Part shown: positions 2,786 through 62,834 of the stretch, piece after piece | Layout of the letters: each line of letters begins with the position of its first letter | Position numbering within the stretch: position 1 is the first letter of the stretch | Assembly: GCF_900299525.1 (NCBI RefSeq) | Contig: NZ_OMKA01000029.1 | Location: forward strand, 546,986 to 610,985 | Length of the DNA: 64,000 bases | From: Aquimarina sp. Aq78 | GTDB lineage: Bacteria > Bacteroidota > Bacteroidia > Flavobacteriales > Flavobacteriaceae | Direction: 5' to 3' | Translations under genes and position numbers: made by a program | The notes under the pieces: model-generated | What the model was told of the DNA's origin: nothing | What the model saw: only the letters and a program-made list of their open reading frames with translations | Databases searched by the model: none

Positions 2786-3913
2786 TTATTTTGAAATCTC
2801 TTCGATAATCGAAATGTAATCAGATCGGTTTGCTATAAAATCCCGTTCAGATACATCGATTATCTTTATATTAAATTGCGGTTGTGATTTCATGAATTGC
2901 AAATACCCCTTATTGATCTTATCCAGATATTCTGCAGGGATTTTTTGCTCATAGTCTCTACCTCTTTTTTTGATATTTTCTAAAAGACGTTCTGTATTTT
3001 GATATAAATAAACGTATAGTCCGGGTTTGGCTAAATTTCTATACATCAGGTCAAATACTTTTTTATACAGCATAAACTCTTCTGATTGTAAAGTAACCTT
3101 AGCAAAAATCAATGATTTAAATACATCATAATCACTCACTACAAAATCTTTAAACAAATCAAATTGCGCTATATCATCTTGTAAACGTTGATAACGATCT
3201 GCCAGAAAAGACATCTCGAGAGGAAAAGCATAACGCTCCATATCCTCATAAAACTTTGGCAAAAAAGGATTATCGGCAAACCGTTCCAGAATGAGTTTTG
3301 CATTAAACTCTTTAGCAATCAATTGTGCCAAACTTGTTTTACCAGCTCCAATATTTCCCTCGACAGTAAGGTATTGAAACCGTGATAAAGTATACTTCTC
3401 TTTTGGGTTTGTTATTTTTTCACCAAGTAGAGTCACTTTTGAATCATCAGAAGTACTCTTTAACAATTGTTTTACGTTTTGCTTCAATATTGGGTGTACC
3501 ATATCTCCCGCAATCTCTGCTAGTGGTTCTAGCACAAATTTTCGATCCTGCATTGCAGGATGGGGAACTATCAATTCTTTGGTTTCTATATTTCCTTCCG
3601 AAGAGAAAATAATATCCAGGTCAATCGTTCTTGCCTCATACCCTTCGCCATCTGTTCTATTTCTACCCAGAGAGTTTTCGATTCCTAACAAGATCGTCAA
3701 TACTTCAGTTTCAGAAAGAAAAGTACGTATTGTAACACAAGCATTATAAAAATCATCACTATTAAATCCCCAGGCCGGAGTTTGATAAACTCCAGAAATT
3801 GAAACTATATCTCCTATCGTTTCATATATCTCATTAACAGCATTCTGCAGAAAATCTATGCGATTTCCTATATTACTTCCTAATGAAATATGTAATAAAC
3901 GGGATGTTTTCAA
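2786..3913 (-). CDS. folK: Fusion of HPPK (FolK) with a deoxynucleoside kinase
   Basis: Residues 1 to about 160 are 2-amino-4-hydroxy-6-hydroxymethyldihydropteridine pyrophosphokinase, a folate-pathway step: SLGSNIGNR near the start, RTIDLDI at 95-101 and PHPAMQDRKFVLEPL at 117-131. Residues about 180-375 are a deoxyadenosine/deoxyguanosine-kinase-like domain with a P-loop GNIGAGKTS (185-193), ERFADNPFL, and the ERLLENIKKRGRDYE lid-type segment, which salvages deoxynucleosides. Both domains look complete, so one polypeptide carries two cytosolic nucleotide-related kinase activities joined by a charged linker. I recall such fusions in other Bacteroidota, so it is a lineage trait rather than a local accident. 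It is convergent with the dipeptidase gene. Confidence 0.92.
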   Translation of the reverse strand: MKTSRLLHISLGSNIGNRIDFLQNAVNEIYETIGDIVSISGVYQTPAWGFNSDDFYNACVTIRTFLSETEVLTILLGIENSLGRNRTDGEGYEARTIDLDIIFSSEGNIETKELIVPHPAMQDRKFVLEPLAEIAGDMVHPILKQNVKQLLKSTSDDSKVTLLGEKITNPKEKYTLSRFQYLTVEGNIGAGKTSLAQLIAKEFNAKLILERFADNPFLPKFYEDMERYAFPLEMSFLADRYQRLQDDIAQFDLFKDFVVSDYDVFKSLIFAKVTLQSEEFMLYKKVFDLMYRNLAKPGLYVYLYQNTERLLENIKKRGRDYEQKIPAEYLDKINKGYLQFMKSQPQFNIKIIDVSERDFIANRSDYISIIEEISK

Positions 3914-3990
3914 TATTGGATTTTTTATATTCTGATCAGAACTCCTTATTTTTAGGACAAATTAAACAAAACAAAATCACTTCGCCTTAT

Positions 3991-4033
3991 TTTTGAGCGA
4001 ACTATTATTAACTATTATTTTATTTTGAGCGAA
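3991..4033. repeat. Short direct repeat around the start of the YhhQ-like gene
   Basis: TTTTGAGCGAA occurs at 3991-4001 and again at 4023-4033. Between them ACTATTATT is itself repeated. The second copy contains the TTG used as start codon by the downstream gene. The copies are 32 bp apart and therefore out of frame with each other. Confidence 0.7.
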
Positions 4034-4732
4034 ACTCTTCTAAACTTAAAAAATAAACGTACTGCTTATAGAATATACCTGATACTTGGTGCGCTTTTTA
4101 TTTCATCTTTGGTGGTATCTAATCTTATTTTTCAAAAATTCTTTTACTGGGATTTTTTTGGAATATATACTTTTGAAATTTCTGTAGGGATTCTACCATA
4201 CCCTATTACATTTTTGATCACAGACATTATTAGTGAAGTATATGGTAAGAGGAAAGCTAATCAAATCGTTACTGCTGGTATTTTTGCATCTTTTTTTTCA
4301 TTACTTATCGTATATGCTTCATCTTCGGTTCCTGCTACGGCTTGGTCTCCAATAAATGATGAAATATTTAATCAGGTTTTTGGCGCTACAGTAATTGCTG
4401 TATTTGCATCAATGATGGCTTATCTTTTTGCACAATATATCGATATCCAGATTTTTCATTTTTGGAAACGCGTCACCAAAGGAAAGCACCTTTGGCTGCG
4501 AAATAATTTCTCTACTTTTTCTTCCCAGTTTATAGATACACTAACAGTTCTTTTATTACTCTGCTCTGCTGGGATTATCGATTGGGATCGTTTTGGAATA
4601 TTATTACTTAATGGTTTTTTGTTTAAAATATTGGTTGCTGCACTAGATACTCCAATTTTGTATCTATGTGTATATGTTATGAGAAAACGATTTAAGCTAA
4701 AACAAGGTGGTGAATTAGCTTTGGAAATTTAA
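4025..4732 (+). CDS. VUT family / YhhQ-type queuosine precursor transporter
   Basis: A 235-residue polytopic membrane protein with about six hydrophobic segments. The family signature is clear: FEISVGILPYPITFLITDI followed by SEVYGKRKANQ, with a later FHFWKRVTKGKHLWLRNNFS and a cytoplasmic-loop Asp. YhhQ homologs import queuosine precursors such as preQ0/preQ1 for tRNA modification; that role is from the family and the substrate here is inferred. The only start preserving the first membrane segment is TTG at 4025; no ATG occurs in the first stretch. It is divergent from folK and followed by an unrelated gene. Confidence 0.88.
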   Translation: MSETLLNLKNKRTAYRIYLILGALFISSLVVSNLIFQKFFYWDFFGIYTFEISVGILPYPITFLITDIISEVYGKRKANQIVTAGIFASFFSLLIVYASSSVPATAWSPINDEIFNQVFGATVIAVFASMMAYLFAQYIDIQIFHFWKRVTKGKHLWLRNNFSTFSSQFIDTLTVLLLLCSAGIIDWDRFGILLLNGFLFKILVAALDTPILYLCVYVMRKRFKLKQGGELALEI

Positions 4733-35450: not shown

Positions 35451-35475
35451 TTTTTATAATACATAAACTTAAAAA

Positions 35476-35570
35476 AGATTGTCTAAAAAATAATGTTCTT
35501 CATTTTTATAAGACATAAGCAATAAATTAGTTCTCAAAAAGACAATAAACAAGTTACTTCTAGACAATCT
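35476..35570 (-). terminator. Long-loop inverted repeat, possible terminator for the precursor gene
   Basis: AGATTGTCTA (35476-35485) and TAGACAATCT (35561-35570) are perfect inverted repeats 75 nt apart. Read on the minus strand, the second arm is followed by TTTTTTAAG, so it could end the transcript of the small precursor gene; the loop is unusually long and may fold inside. Confidence 0.4.
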
Positions 35571-35594
35571 TCATTTCTCTAACTTAAAAGAGGA

Positions 35595-35810
35595 TTAACA
35601 GTAAATAGGCCCGCTAATTCCTCCACCACCAGTACCTCCACCAGTGCCTCCACAATTATTAGTGTAACACGTTTGCCCCGGTTGATTACCTTGTCCGGCA
35701 CAACTATGTAATGATGGATTACCTGTCCCTCCAATAATAGCTTTAGAGGCTAGGTTAGAAATTTTGATTTTTTCTAGAGATAGTTTTTTTAACGATTCTC
35801 TTTTTTTCAT
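35595..35810 (-). CDS. Putative RiPP precursor peptide (class I lanthipeptide-like leader, Cys/Gly-rich core)
   Basis: A 71-residue peptide. The leader MKKRESLKKLSLEKIKISNL matches the pattern of Bacteroidota natural-product precursors (Lys-rich start, LKKLSLEKxxIxxL) and is followed by an IIGGTG segment that could be the leader cleavage site. The putative core (about 41 residues) has four Cys (at HSC, QTC, NNC and the C-terminal IYC), seven Ser/Thr and a run of Gly and Thr. Such composition fits thioether-ring peptides or a Cys-rich modified peptide. No LanB/LanC, radical SAM, YcaO, peptidase-transporter or other modification gene is visible on either side, so it is an orphan in the window. 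A LytTR two-component pair lies 115 bp upstream. Family membership is inferred by eye. Confidence 0.65.
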   Translation of the reverse strand: MKKRESLKKLSLEKIKISNLASKAIIGGTGNPSLHSCAGQGNQPGQTCYTNNCGGTGGGTGGGGISGPIYC

Positions 35811-35925
35811 TATTTTAAGTTTTTGTAGTTAATAATACCGGATATTACAAATTACAACAACTAACACTTGTTTTCTTAGCGTATTTTAACAAAAAAAATT
35901 AGAATTTAATAATTATAAATCATGA

Positions 35926-36657
35926 TTATTTAAAATAATTCAATAATGTTCCTTTTTTAGAAGAAGACACAGATAATTCTTTGCCCGAAGAAAGCACAAC
36001 GCTTCCTCCTTTTCCCTTCCGATATCGTGTTATTTTACTCACATTCACCAAATAGCTTTTATGAGTTCGTACAAATCCGTGCGTATTTAGGGATTCTTCA
36101 AAATATTTCAGCGTTTTGCTTACTAGCTTCTGACCTTTATTCAGGTAAATTTTGGTATAGTTATCGTCTGCTTCGCAATATAGAATATCACAAATCTGTA
36201 GAACTTCAAAACCATCTTGCTGTGGGATCGTGATTTTACCTTCTACCGTAGTCACCTTAGGAACTAAAACAGTGTCCAAAAGAGCAGCTTCCCGTTGCTT
36301 GATATAGCTTACATGATCAACAGCTTTGATAAGATTATCAATTGCAATAGGTTTTAACAGGTAATAGGTTGCCTGAGCATTTAAAGCATCTACCGCATAA
36401 TGATCATAGGCCGTTACAAAAACAATTTCGAATGTACGATCAGGCACTTGTTCCAATAAATCAAATGCATTACCGTAAGGCATTTCTACGTCCAAAAACA
36501 ACATATCAGGAGTATGAGATTCTAGCAGGACTAATGTTTCTTTTACACTGGAAGCTTCTCCCAAAATGGTAACCGATGGGCAATATTTGCCTAAATAATT
36601 TCTAAGTATGGCTCGGCTATTAGCTTCATCATCTACTATGATTGCAGTTAAGTTCAT
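35926..36657 (-). CDS. LytTR family response regulator
   Basis: A 243-residue regulator. The N-terminal receiver has VDDEANSR (acidic pocket), phospho-acceptor Asp56 in MLFLDVEMP and FVTAYDHYA with the later Lys. The C-terminal LytTR DNA-binding domain (about residues 140-243) has LYCEADDNYTKIYLNKGQ and FVRTHKSYLVNVSKI. It is encoded with zero spacing after the histidine kinase, which is transcribed first. LytTR regulators usually act on envelope or natural-product genes; the target is unknown. The small precursor gene is the next gene downstream on the same strand. Confidence 0.95.
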   Translation of the reverse strand: MNLTAIIVDDEANSRAILRNYLGKYCPSVTILGEASSVKETLVLLESHTPDMLFLDVEMPYGNAFDLLEQVPDRTFEIVFVTAYDHYAVDALNAQATYYLLKPIAIDNLIKAVDHVSYIKQREAALLDTVLVPKVTTVEGKITIPQQDGFEVLQICDILYCEADDNYTKIYLNKGQKLVSKTLKYFEESLNTHGFVRTHKSYLVNVSKITRYRKGKGGSVVLSSGKELSVSSSKKGTLLNYFK

Positions 36658-38868
36658 TTACTTGTCTTTCTTAAGAATTAATTTTACCTGGGTTCCTTCT
36701 GTATTATCTTCGAGGTCCGATATAAAAACATCTACCTTATCTTTATACATTTTATTAAGGATTGCAATTCTCTTTTTGATATTGCCCATCCCTCTGGATT
36801 TTTGAAGTTTTTGGTTTTGCGTTTTCAATTCTTTAGACTTTTTACGCCCTATTCCATCATCAGTAATTATAATTTCTATACTCTCTGATGTTTCTTTTTG
36901 AAAACGTATGGACAACAAGCCCTTTTCAGTTTTATATCGTAATCCATGCCATACAGCATTCTCTACATATGGCTGCAATAACATAGGAGGAATCATATAT
37001 TCATTAATGTCGATTTCGGGATCAACCTCAACCGTATATTCAAATTTATCCTGAAACCTAAAATGCTCTAATTGCACATATAACCTTAAGAGTTCTATTT
37101 CTTTTTCTAGAGGAATAAAATCTTCTTCACTATTCTCTAAAACGGCTCTCATTAATAACGAAAAATCAGTAAGGTATCGATTTGCGGTTCTTTCATCACT
37201 CGTAGCTATAAATGTATTTACAGAATTTAAAGCATTAAAAATAAAATGAGGATTCATTTGGGAGCGTAGTGATTTTAATGCTAAAAGGTTATTTGCATAC
37301 CGTTGTTGCTTCATATTACGATACATTAAATATGCAGCAAGAAGTAATAAAACTGTTAACCCTATTAAAAAATAGATTACAGTTTGTTGTCGTATACTTT
37401 GTTGATTTGCTATTTCTTGAGAAGCAAATGCCAATTCGTATTTTGCCTCATTTAGCTCCCTGTCTTTCTCTAGCGTGGTAATCCTATTTGCTCTCTGTGC
37501 TAACTCTCTACTAAAACGAGCTGCCTGTGATATCTCCTGATCTTTTTGTATATATAATTTATCAATGATTACCTCATATTCTTCAAAGGCATCTGATGCT
37601 TTTTTTAATTCTCCTTTTTCTCGATAGACTTCTCCCAGTTTTCGGGTGGCATCTTTTTGAACAATTAGATCATTTTTTGATTCTGCTTCCTTAATACTTT
37701 CTTTCAGATATGGAATAGCTTCATCATATTCTTCTTGCGCAGCAAAGGCACTAGCAATTTTATAATTCTGTACCTGGGTAGTTAAAGAGTTATCTTCTGC
37801 CGTTGGACCTTCATTTTCATTAGTTTTCTCGATCTCTTCGATATCCTCGAGTGCCTCTTTTCTTAATTGTATTTCTTTACCATAGCTATTACTCTTATTA
37901 TAAAAATCTGCTGCAGTCGATCTTTGCCGTGCCGATGTCTTTTTATCCTTTTGTTGCGCTAACTGTACCGAATTATCCAAATACTCTTCAGCATCTCTAA
38001 TATTTCCTTCCTGCTGTAATACCTCGGCTAACTTAGAATTTAATAAAATCACTCTATCATCCAGTTTTTTTCTCTGGCTTATAGAAAGAGCTTTATTATA
38101 ATTGGCAATAGCATCAGGGTAGTTTTGTAGTCCTTTATAACTATCTCCTAAACCTTCATAGACAATAGCCCTTTGAGTATTATTTAACCTAGATCGCTGT
38201 AACTGGTCAAAAGTATTTAAAGCCGCCTGATAATTTTTACCTTCTAATCGTGCATTAGCCAATTTAATTTTTACATCAGTACTATATTTATTTTTAAGAC
38301 TCATGAGATAATTACTTTCAGCAAGATCGGGTTGTTTCCAATACTTATAAATATCTGCTAATGACTCAAACAATTCGGCTTTTTTATCATCTGACGAAGG
38401 GTCATCATCTCGTATAGTCTCTAAAGCATTAGTGATATACTCTATACTTGTAGCAGCATCCTTTTTTAAAGTACTTTTTGCTGCTTTTAGATTTTTCTTA
38501 TACCGAGACTCGCTCTTTTGTTTTGAAATTGATGGTGATTCAGCCTCCCGAGGGTTATCATGTACTTCAATATCAATTTTTTGACCATCTTTGATCGTAT
38601 ATCGAATTGTATTAAAACTATCATGAGTAATTACAAGTTCGTCTCCAACACGGGCTTCTATTTTAAAATTACCAAAAATATCAGTTGTTACTGTTCCTTT
38701 CCCTAGTACAGTTACCTCTACATCTCTAACCGCTTTTCGAGTACTCTTTTCTTTCACAGAACCTTTGATACTCATTGATTCTGGTCTCTTCATTCTAGCA
38801 TTCTCTTGTCCCAAAACCAATACAGGCAGGAACCAAAGAAATACTATTATCAAACCAATCTTCTTCAT
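36658..38868 (-). CDS. TPR-containing sensor histidine kinase (LytS/HisKA-like type), envelope
   Basis: A 736-residue sensor. N-terminal signal or membrane anchor (LIIVFLWFLPVLVLGQ), then a CarboxypepD-regulatory-like beta domain (about residues 30-110: IKGSVKEKSTRKAVRDVEVTV, TVTTDIFGNFKIEARVGDEL), then TPR-like helical repeats (about 180-480; YEGLGDSYKGLQNYPDAIANYNKAL), a transmembrane helix (VIYFLIGLTVLLLLAAYLM), and a histidine-kinase domain with SQMNPHFIFNALNSV (His541) and the ATP-binding VENAVWHGLRYKTEKGLL and DDGIGRKKSK. The sensing part therefore lies outside the cytoplasm. Paired with the LytTR regulator that follows directly. Confidence 0.93.
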   Translation of the reverse strand: MKKIGLIIVFLWFLPVLVLGQENARMKRPESMSIKGSVKEKSTRKAVRDVEVTVLGKGTVTTDIFGNFKIEARVGDELVITHDSFNTIRYTIKDGQKIDIEVHDNPREAESPSISKQKSESRYKKNLKAAKSTLKKDAATSIEYITNALETIRDDDPSSDDKKAELFESLADIYKYWKQPDLAESNYLMSLKNKYSTDVKIKLANARLEGKNYQAALNTFDQLQRSRLNNTQRAIVYEGLGDSYKGLQNYPDAIANYNKALSISQRKKLDDRVILLNSKLAEVLQQEGNIRDAEEYLDNSVQLAQQKDKKTSARQRSTAADFYNKSNSYGKEIQLRKEALEDIEEIEKTNENEGPTAEDNSLTTQVQNYKIASAFAAQEEYDEAIPYLKESIKEAESKNDLIVQKDATRKLGEVYREKGELKKASDAFEEYEVIIDKLYIQKDQEISQAARFSRELAQRANRITTLEKDRELNEAKYELAFASQEIANQQSIRQQTVIYFLIGLTVLLLLAAYLMYRNMKQQRYANNLLALKSLRSQMNPHFIFNALNSVNTFIATSDERTANRYLTDFSLLMRAVLENSEEDFIPLEKEIELLRLYVQLEHFRFQDKFEYTVEVDPEIDINEYMIPPMLLQPYVENAVWHGLRYKTEKGLLSIRFQKETSESIEIIITDDGIGRKKSKELKTQNQKLQKSRGMGNIKKRIAILNKMYKDKVDVFISDLEDNTEGTQVKLILKKDK

Positions 38869-62140: not shown

Positions 62141-62834
62141 ATTGAGATGCTCTAACTTGTTCTACTTCTTTATCTTCAACAATAACACCATCTTTAAGGT
62201 GTACTATACGTTTACACATATCAGCAATATCTGGTTCGTGAGTTACTACTAATATTGTTTTGCCTTCATCATTAATATTCTGAATGATATCCATTACTTC
62301 GTACGAAGTTTTACTATCCAAAGCTCCTGTGGGCTCATCTGCCAATAACACTTTAGGATCTGCAGCTAATGCTCTGGCAATTGCTACACGTTGTTTTTGT
62401 CCTCCGGAAAGCTCACTTGGTAGGTGGGTTGCCCATTCTGCCAATCCTACTTTGCTAAGATAATCCATTGCTGTATCAATTCTTTCTTTTCGTTTTTTGC
62501 GTTGGTAGTACAATGGAAGGGCAACATTTTCTAAAGCTGTCTTGTAGTTAATCAAATTGAAAGATTGAAAAACAAATCCTAAAAATTTGTTACGATACTG
62601 TGCTGCTTTAGTTTCGTTTAATCCTTTTATAGGAACTTCATCTAAAAAATAGCTTCCGCTATCGGCCTCATCTAACATTCCTAAGATATTTAACAATGTA
62701 GATTTTCCAGAACCCGAAGATCCCATTATAGCGACCAACTCGCCCTCTTTTACATTAAAATCTATTCCTTTAAGTACATGAAGCGAATTGCTTCCCATTT
62801 GGTAAGATTTATGTAAGTCTTTTATTTCAATCAT
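62133..62834 (-). CDS. ABC transporter ATP-binding protein, LolD/MacB type
   Basis: A 233-residue ATPase with Walker A GSSGSGKST, the Q-loop FVFQSFNLI, the signature LSGGQKQRVAIARALA, Walker B VLLADEPTGALD and the His switch VVTHEPD. It powers the two downstream permeases and is the first gene of the six-gene efflux operon: ATPase, permease, permease, adaptor, TolC, adaptor. Substrate could be a peptide, siderophore or toxic compound; not predictable. Confidence 0.95.
   Translation of the reverse strand: MIEIKDLHKSYQMGSNSLHVLKGIDFNVKEGELVAIMGSSGSGKSTLLNILGMLDEADSGSYFLDEVPIKGLNETKAAQYRNKFLGFVFQSFNLINYKTALENVALPLYYQRKKRKERIDTAMDYLSKVGLAEWATHLPSELSGGQKQRVAIARALAADPKVLLADEPTGALDSKTSYEVMDIIQNINDEGKTILVVTHEPDIADMCKRIVHLKDGVIVEDKEVEQVRASQYV

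Follow-up and report, generated by a model that had tools for sequence, protein, structure and literature searches.

A candidate orphan class I lanthipeptide precursor in Aquimarina sp. Aq78 and the distant LanB, LanC and C39 exporters that may serve it

Introduction

RiPP mining commonly inspects the genes that lie beside modification enzymes. A short gene of Aquimarina sp. Aq78 poses the reverse question: what should be made of a Cys- and Gly-rich peptide with a lanthipeptide-type leader when no LanB, LanC, C39 or SPASM gene lies around it? Its neighbours were followed across the genus, the source genome was searched for the machinery that could act on it, and its leader was compared with those of other family members. 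We consider it probable that the peptide is an orphan class I lanthipeptide precursor (LanA) of the LxLxKx5L-GG type, which would be modified in trans by a distant LanB and LanC and exported by a C39 transporter.

Results

A conserved precursor gene

The window, by which we mean the whole 64,000-nucleotide stretch that was analysed, carries the gene on its minus strand at 35595..35810, and the 71-residue open reading frame described in an earlier sequence-only reading of this DNA was confirmed there. Among 66 genomes of the genus searched, orthologues with 90-100% identity are present in 10 Aquimarina genomes, the source genome included, and a 69% identical homologue is present in a genome of another species (G053). 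At least two named relatives, Aquimarina megaterium XH134 and A. atlantica 22II-S11-z7, are carriers among the matches listed. A Pfam search of the peptide gave no match.

Pooled over all pairs of the 10 orthologues, the pn/ps ratio is 0.099 (ps 0.434, pn 0.043), with values of 0.115 for the leader and 0.087 for the core. Compared with the G017 orthologue, the gene displays 11 synonymous and 0 non-synonymous changes plus one extra Gly codon; all length differences among the orthologues are whole codons, and the frame is open in all 10. The gene is under strong purifying selection, and the pn/ps results indicate that it is translated and that leader and core both matter. The local absence of enzymes could suggest a gene in decay, left over from a lost cluster, a reading that is already contradicted by the selection result and by the 10 open frames, and that we find scarcely credible.

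The leader belongs to a class I family

According to the survey by Walker et al. 2020, LxLxKx5L is the motif of Bacteroidetes class I LanAs, many of which have a GG end and in whose clusters a C39 protease is often found (PMC7268733). The predicted leader of the peptide (residues 1-28; 35727..35810, minus strand) contains this motif exactly in residues 10-20, LSLEKIKISNL (L10, L12, K14, L20), and ends with G27-G28. Among window ORFs of at least 25 aa, the peptide alone has the motif in its first 45 residues, and the combination LxLxKx5L..GG appeared in 0 of 2000 shuffled leaders.

Leader profiles, from all of which the peptide itself was kept out, were run against 486 targets, namely the 484 window ORFs of at least 25 aa, the peptide again, and the G053 homologue; only the last two obtained good scores. 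One profile was built from every leader that had been seen in a complete LanB-LanC locus of another genome (16 in all: 5 from three other family genomes, 11 from the genus); it gave the peptide 27.6 bits (E 7.1e-8), compared to 4.4 bits (E 1.3) for the next window ORF and 13.1 bits for the best of 2000 shuffles. All 16 were run because a subset of nine such leaders had been our own choice; that subset gave 31.2 bits (E 4.7e-9), compared with 7.2 bits for the next window ORF and 12.1 bits for the best shuffle. A profile of 12 other leaders from the source genome gave 27.1 bits (E 1e-7, 486 targets), and the highest-scoring of 2000 shuffled leaders reached 10.6 bits. When the profile was confined to the 11 same-genus leaders, the peptide obtained 12.7 bits (E 0.0029), below the 14.3 bits of the top shuffle among 2000, and the G053 homologue obtained 30.0 bits. 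The profile link therefore comes mainly from other genera and from the scattered leaders of the source genome. As judged from these profiles, the leader is a member of the family, in a branch formed by other genera and the scattered genes of the source genome and not by the usual Aquimarina clusters.

Exact motif and profiles together bear out the lanthipeptide-type Bacteroidota leader that the sequence-only reading had recognized. Curated models were less responsive. The class I leader model NF038153 (lant_leader_L1a) is the single NCBIfam match and aligns with residues 1-20, but its 11.7 bits fall below the cut-off of 22, which two other leaders of the source genome exceed (26.8 and 22.8 bits). 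A TIGR04149-type model, which the sequence-only reading had put forward for searching, is not listed among NCBIfam matches to E 10, although within that range weak matches are mostly removed by the HMMER filters. The same reading would have been given up for a peptide with neither similarity to leader models nor conserved homologues bearing the same leader; such homologues exist.

The core retains its Cys and most of its Ser/Thr residues

The core (residues 29-71; 35598..35726, minus strand) was delineated from composition and an alignment of nine of the 11 known sequences. Its 43 residues include four Cys, at positions 37, 48, 53 and 71, as had been claimed; the claimed seven Ser/Thr are eight after GG28, and the lower count is obtained only if Thr29 is omitted. 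The nine aligned sequences agree in all four Cys and in six of the eight Ser/Thr (S33, S36, T47, T50, T60 and S66), and the two omitted ones (G018, G064) have the same residues, while the Gly/Thr run varies in length between the aligned sequences. Starting at Thr29, the core has a calculated monoisotopic mass of 3999.66 Da without modification and 3927.62 Da after four dehydrations. Spacings resembling those of class I products would permit rings S33-C37, T50-C53 and S66-C71.

An extra gene between a LytTR regulator and murI

The next two genes upstream, on the same strand as the peptide gene, are a LytTR response regulator (35926..36657, minus strand; Pfam LytTR and Response_reg) and then a TPR sensor histidine kinase (36658..38868, minus strand; Pfam His_kinase and TPR above cut-off), in the order originally described. 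At its N terminus, ahead of the TPRs, the kinase also matches CarbopepD_reg_2 weakly, with 22.9 bits against a cut-off of 32.2. Alignment of the upstream regions revealed a block directly upstream of the peptide gene (35811..35875, minus strand). Eight of the 10 carriers have it in near-identical form and G016 retains most of it, whereas G008 and the G053 homologue have divergent sequence there. Its conservation in most carriers suggests that the peptide gene probably has its own promoter at this block. On the other side, the gap between the peptide gene and murI contains an 11-bp inverted repeat, AAGATTGTCTA/TAGACAATCTT (35475..35571, no strand assigned), the arms of which are retained in seven of the 10 carriers aligned; a hairpin is predicted in the source genome (G000), and the repeat is probably a bidirectional terminator.

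The regulator is present in 52 of the 66 genus genomes, and its locus was read in 30 of them. The peptide is present at 10 of these loci; at 13 it is absent, with regulator and murI tail to tail and about 7-28 bp apart; six have a larger gap of about 700-1050 bp in which pattern matching found no leader-type ORF; and the sequence of one (G036) is too short to tell. Three of the larger gaps were examined for ORFs, and in each the opposite strand encodes another protein, of 164-215 aa. As portrayed by the survey, the peptide gene is an addition to an older pair of convergent genes, between which it lies.

These data weaken the earlier proposal that the LytTR pair controls the peptide. In its strongest form, which is compatible with the explanation we prefer, the peptide would serve the adjacent system alone, as its output or signal, and in 10 of 10 carriers it does lie directly downstream of the regulator on the same strand. 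However, 19 of the 30 loci read have the regulator without the peptide, most carriers have the conserved block 5′ of the peptide gene, and the G053 homologue is located elsewhere, adjoining LanC, with the LytTR gene on a different contig. We down-weighted such a dedicated module after the survey across the genus and now regard it as improbable: the regulator is probably not dedicated to the peptide, with read-through or regulation of the peptide by the LytTR system being possible.

The regulator-murI junction can also harbor a putative lipoprotein of about 180-215 aa (L056:9512-10048, L058:8953-9510; also L106 and L113). It co-occurs with the peptide in G008 and G033; the peptide is absent from G022 and G019, whose lipoproteins share 37-53% identity with the copy of G008 or of G033. 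A Pfam scan of the G008 and G033 copies gave no match. The lipoprotein could be an immunity protein, but a role as that of this peptide was set aside because of the relatives in G022 and G019, which occur without it.

Modification and export genes reside elsewhere in the genome

Whole-genome family searches placed no LanB, LanC, C39 or SPASM family member in the window, and tblastn of ten RiPP-locus proteins from the source genome and G053 against the window found only a weakly similar ABC ATPase (62169-62807). For these four families, the orphan status proposed from the sequence thus holds across the window. The accompanying suggestion that enzymes encoded elsewhere might act in trans is also strengthened: further precursors, LanB, LanC and C39 exporters are all encoded elsewhere in the genome, in which no SPASM protein was found.

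The peptide gene lies on contig C4, the single LanB on C16 and the single LanC on C29. LanB is split into a Lant_dehydr_N protein (C16:507011) and a following Lant_dehydr_C protein, and it matches NisB structures; upstream, in divergent orientation, are the genes for an HlyD protein and a C39-ABC exporter, and downstream those for two AraC-type TPR regulators. The LanC gene (C29:53086; 430 aa) is followed by two precursors, an HlyD protein and a second C39-ABC exporter that matches peptidase-containing bacteriocin transporters, and on the opposite strand of this locus lie a third precursor and another AraC-type TPR regulator. Three C39 proteins are encoded in the genome, on C16, C29 and C34. 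This stand-alone LanC is the one LANC_like protein of the genome, which has no LanM-type protein. It retains SHG, WCYG and CHG, which we take to be the active-site and zinc motifs, and the alignment with 8byk agrees. A caution comes from Bacteroidales, the stand-alone LanCs of which are reported to be without key residues and were judged unrelated to lanthipeptides (PMC10352776).

A different enzyme class, for example a SPASM radical SAM protein, might be invoked instead. Radical-SAM peptides too can have Cys-rich cores. No SPASM match was found in the source genome or in the carriers G008 and G064, and we rejected SPASM radical-SAM modification for the source genome; modification by another enzyme class altogether is very unlikely.

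Beyond the LanB-side C39 exporter on C16, and on the same strand, are short GG-leader peptides with a different leader of the MKNL..NGG type, together with a VKOR protein (L053:152-485, 3124-4410; G000). They are possibly a second bacteriocin-like set that shares the exporter. Their presence at the LanB locus counts against our preferred reading, as the exporter may serve these peptides. Regulators combining TPR and HTH_18 (AraC-type) domains recur (L053:13131-17007, L006:12119-13879, L174:7587-12202), adjoining LanB, the C29 precursors, and orphan precursors in another genus, and they may be likelier than LytTR as regulators of the peptide family.

Some relatives of the peptide adjoin LanB and LanC

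In G053, a LanC gene (404 aa) lies about 160 bp downstream of the homologue, in the same orientation. The source-genome LanC is 47% identical to this protein but 54% identical to another LanC of G053, so the protein next to the homologue is not its counterpart. In a search of the family, eight of 397 genomes drawn matched at E ≤1e-3, the source genome counted, and one 20-kb stretch was examined for each of the seven others. At three of these seven out-of-genus loci (G281, G440, G083) leader relatives adjoin LanC, LanB and Lant_dehydr_C; the other four (G142, G352, G416, G243) have tandem precursors only, with no LanB or LanC in the 20 kb, and those of G142 are accompanied by a TPR-AraC regulator of the type found beside the source-genome LanB. 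Two family genomes outside the genus (L179:7940-9860, L180:3816-11175) each display five tandem or near-tandem leader-type precursors, likewise with no LanB or LanC in 20 kb.

Leaders are scattered and co-occur with LanB

The leader profile found 17 matches at E ≤0.1 in the source genome, 14 of them at E ≤1e-3 and spread over nine contigs. This count is partly circular, as the profile had been built with 13 of the 14, which NF038153, similarity to the peptide, or inspection by eye beside LanC had brought to light; the fourteenth (C16:264922), examined afterwards, likewise encodes a short peptide that has a GG leader and Cys. Four of the 14 are no more than 20 kb from LanB or LanC. Across five genomes (the source genome; G024, G025 and G034, with one contig each; and G064, with three contigs), 57 leaders matched at E ≤1e-3, 17 of them within 20 kb of LanB or LanC and 40 farther away or on another contig. 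With 40 of 57 leaders away from the enzymes, the orphan state is the rule.

Within the genus, three or more leader matches are present in 44 of 50 LanB-positive and in 0 of 16 LanB-negative genomes (Fisher p 8.7e-11, rank test p 1.1e-8, both uncorrected for kinship; the threshold of three was fixed after the counts were seen). The difference persists among genomes at least 95% complete (44 of 48 versus 0 of 10) and among those that are also 3.5-5.0 Mb in size (12 of 14 versus 0 of 7). Six LanB-positive genomes have fewer than three matches, LanB-negative genomes tend to be smaller, and the carriers and the LanB-negative genomes each form related groups. LanB and LanC are found in 11 of 11 carriers, which is weak evidence (chance probability for LanB 0.035).

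These counts bear on a competing reading, in which a GG-leader peptide is merely cleaved and exported by a C39 transporter and forms disulfides instead of thioether rings. The GG leader, the C39-domain proteins in 11 of 11 carriers, the four Cys, which could make two disulfides, and the weak match to the same-genus leaders of LanB-LanC loci would all suit it. On the other hand, the leader motif is the one published for class I LanAs, relatives adjoin LanB and LanC, and the eight LanB-negative genomes that have C39 proteins hold just 0-2 leader matches. We judge cleavage and export without lanthionine formation unlikely.

Proposed pathway

Under the preferred reading of a class I precursor modified in trans, the single split LanB (C16) would recognize the leader and dehydrate Ser/Thr of the core, the single LanC (C29) would use the four invariant Cys to close thioether rings, and one of the C39 peptidase-ABC exporters (that of C16 or C29) would cut after Gly28 and secrete the core. 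A dozen or so further precursors, likewise scattered, would probably be substrates of the same enzymes. Dehydration, the ring pattern, the choice of exporter and any activity of the peptide are what we infer from genes and their comparison.

Discussion

The kind of peptide is already known. The Bacteroidetes class I LanAs share with it (i) the leader motif, (ii) the GG end, (iii) a core with Cys and Ser/Thr, (iv) C39 exporters in the genome, and (v) a split LanB (PMC7268733). Here, however, no enzyme gene is near the peptide, and LanB and LanC are at separate loci: both are present in the genome, but neither is in one cluster with the peptide, and the arrangement differs. Walker et al. considered seven genes in each direction from LanC, required LanB among them for a class I assignment, and left out LanC clusters that had no dehydratase nearby (PMC7268733), a design by which both the peptide and the LanC of the source genome would have been missed. 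Another likeness is to the class I lanthipeptides of Pedobacter lusitanus (PedA15.2), also from Bacteroidota, the leader of which was removed with LahT150, a GG-leader protease (PMC12328550).

The scatter itself resembles that of the class II prochlorosins and synechococsins, the precursors of which are reported to be distributed over the genome with one synthetase for many of them (PMC10783134). Those systems employ a class II LanM and Nif11-type leaders in cyanobacteria, whereas the genome studied here has class I LanB and LanC and another leader family. The likeness consists of the 14 leader ORFs on nine contigs, and their service by one enzyme set would be the further step. The literature searched, from which subscription papers were mostly absent so that a prior description is possible, contained no report of scattered or orphan class I precursors or of Aquimarina lanthipeptides; the arrangement in which LanB, LanC and most precursors lie apart was not found in this mostly non-subscription literature.

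We lean, by a modest degree, towards a broader proposal, namely that this Aquimarina lineage operates a genome-wide class I system that would be the equivalent, in this class, of the prochlorosins. Its one LanB and one LanC, encoded apart from each other, would serve about 14 scattered precursors, and the peptide described here would be a conserved, non-diversifying member with a promoter of its own. Mining restricted to a few genes around LanC would overlook this peptide and, if such leaders are processed in trans, most precursors in these five genomes (40 of 57) escape enzyme-neighborhood mining. If the proposal is true, the lineage would offer a natural LanB/LanC pair that acts on many unrelated substrates and would be useful for peptide engineering.
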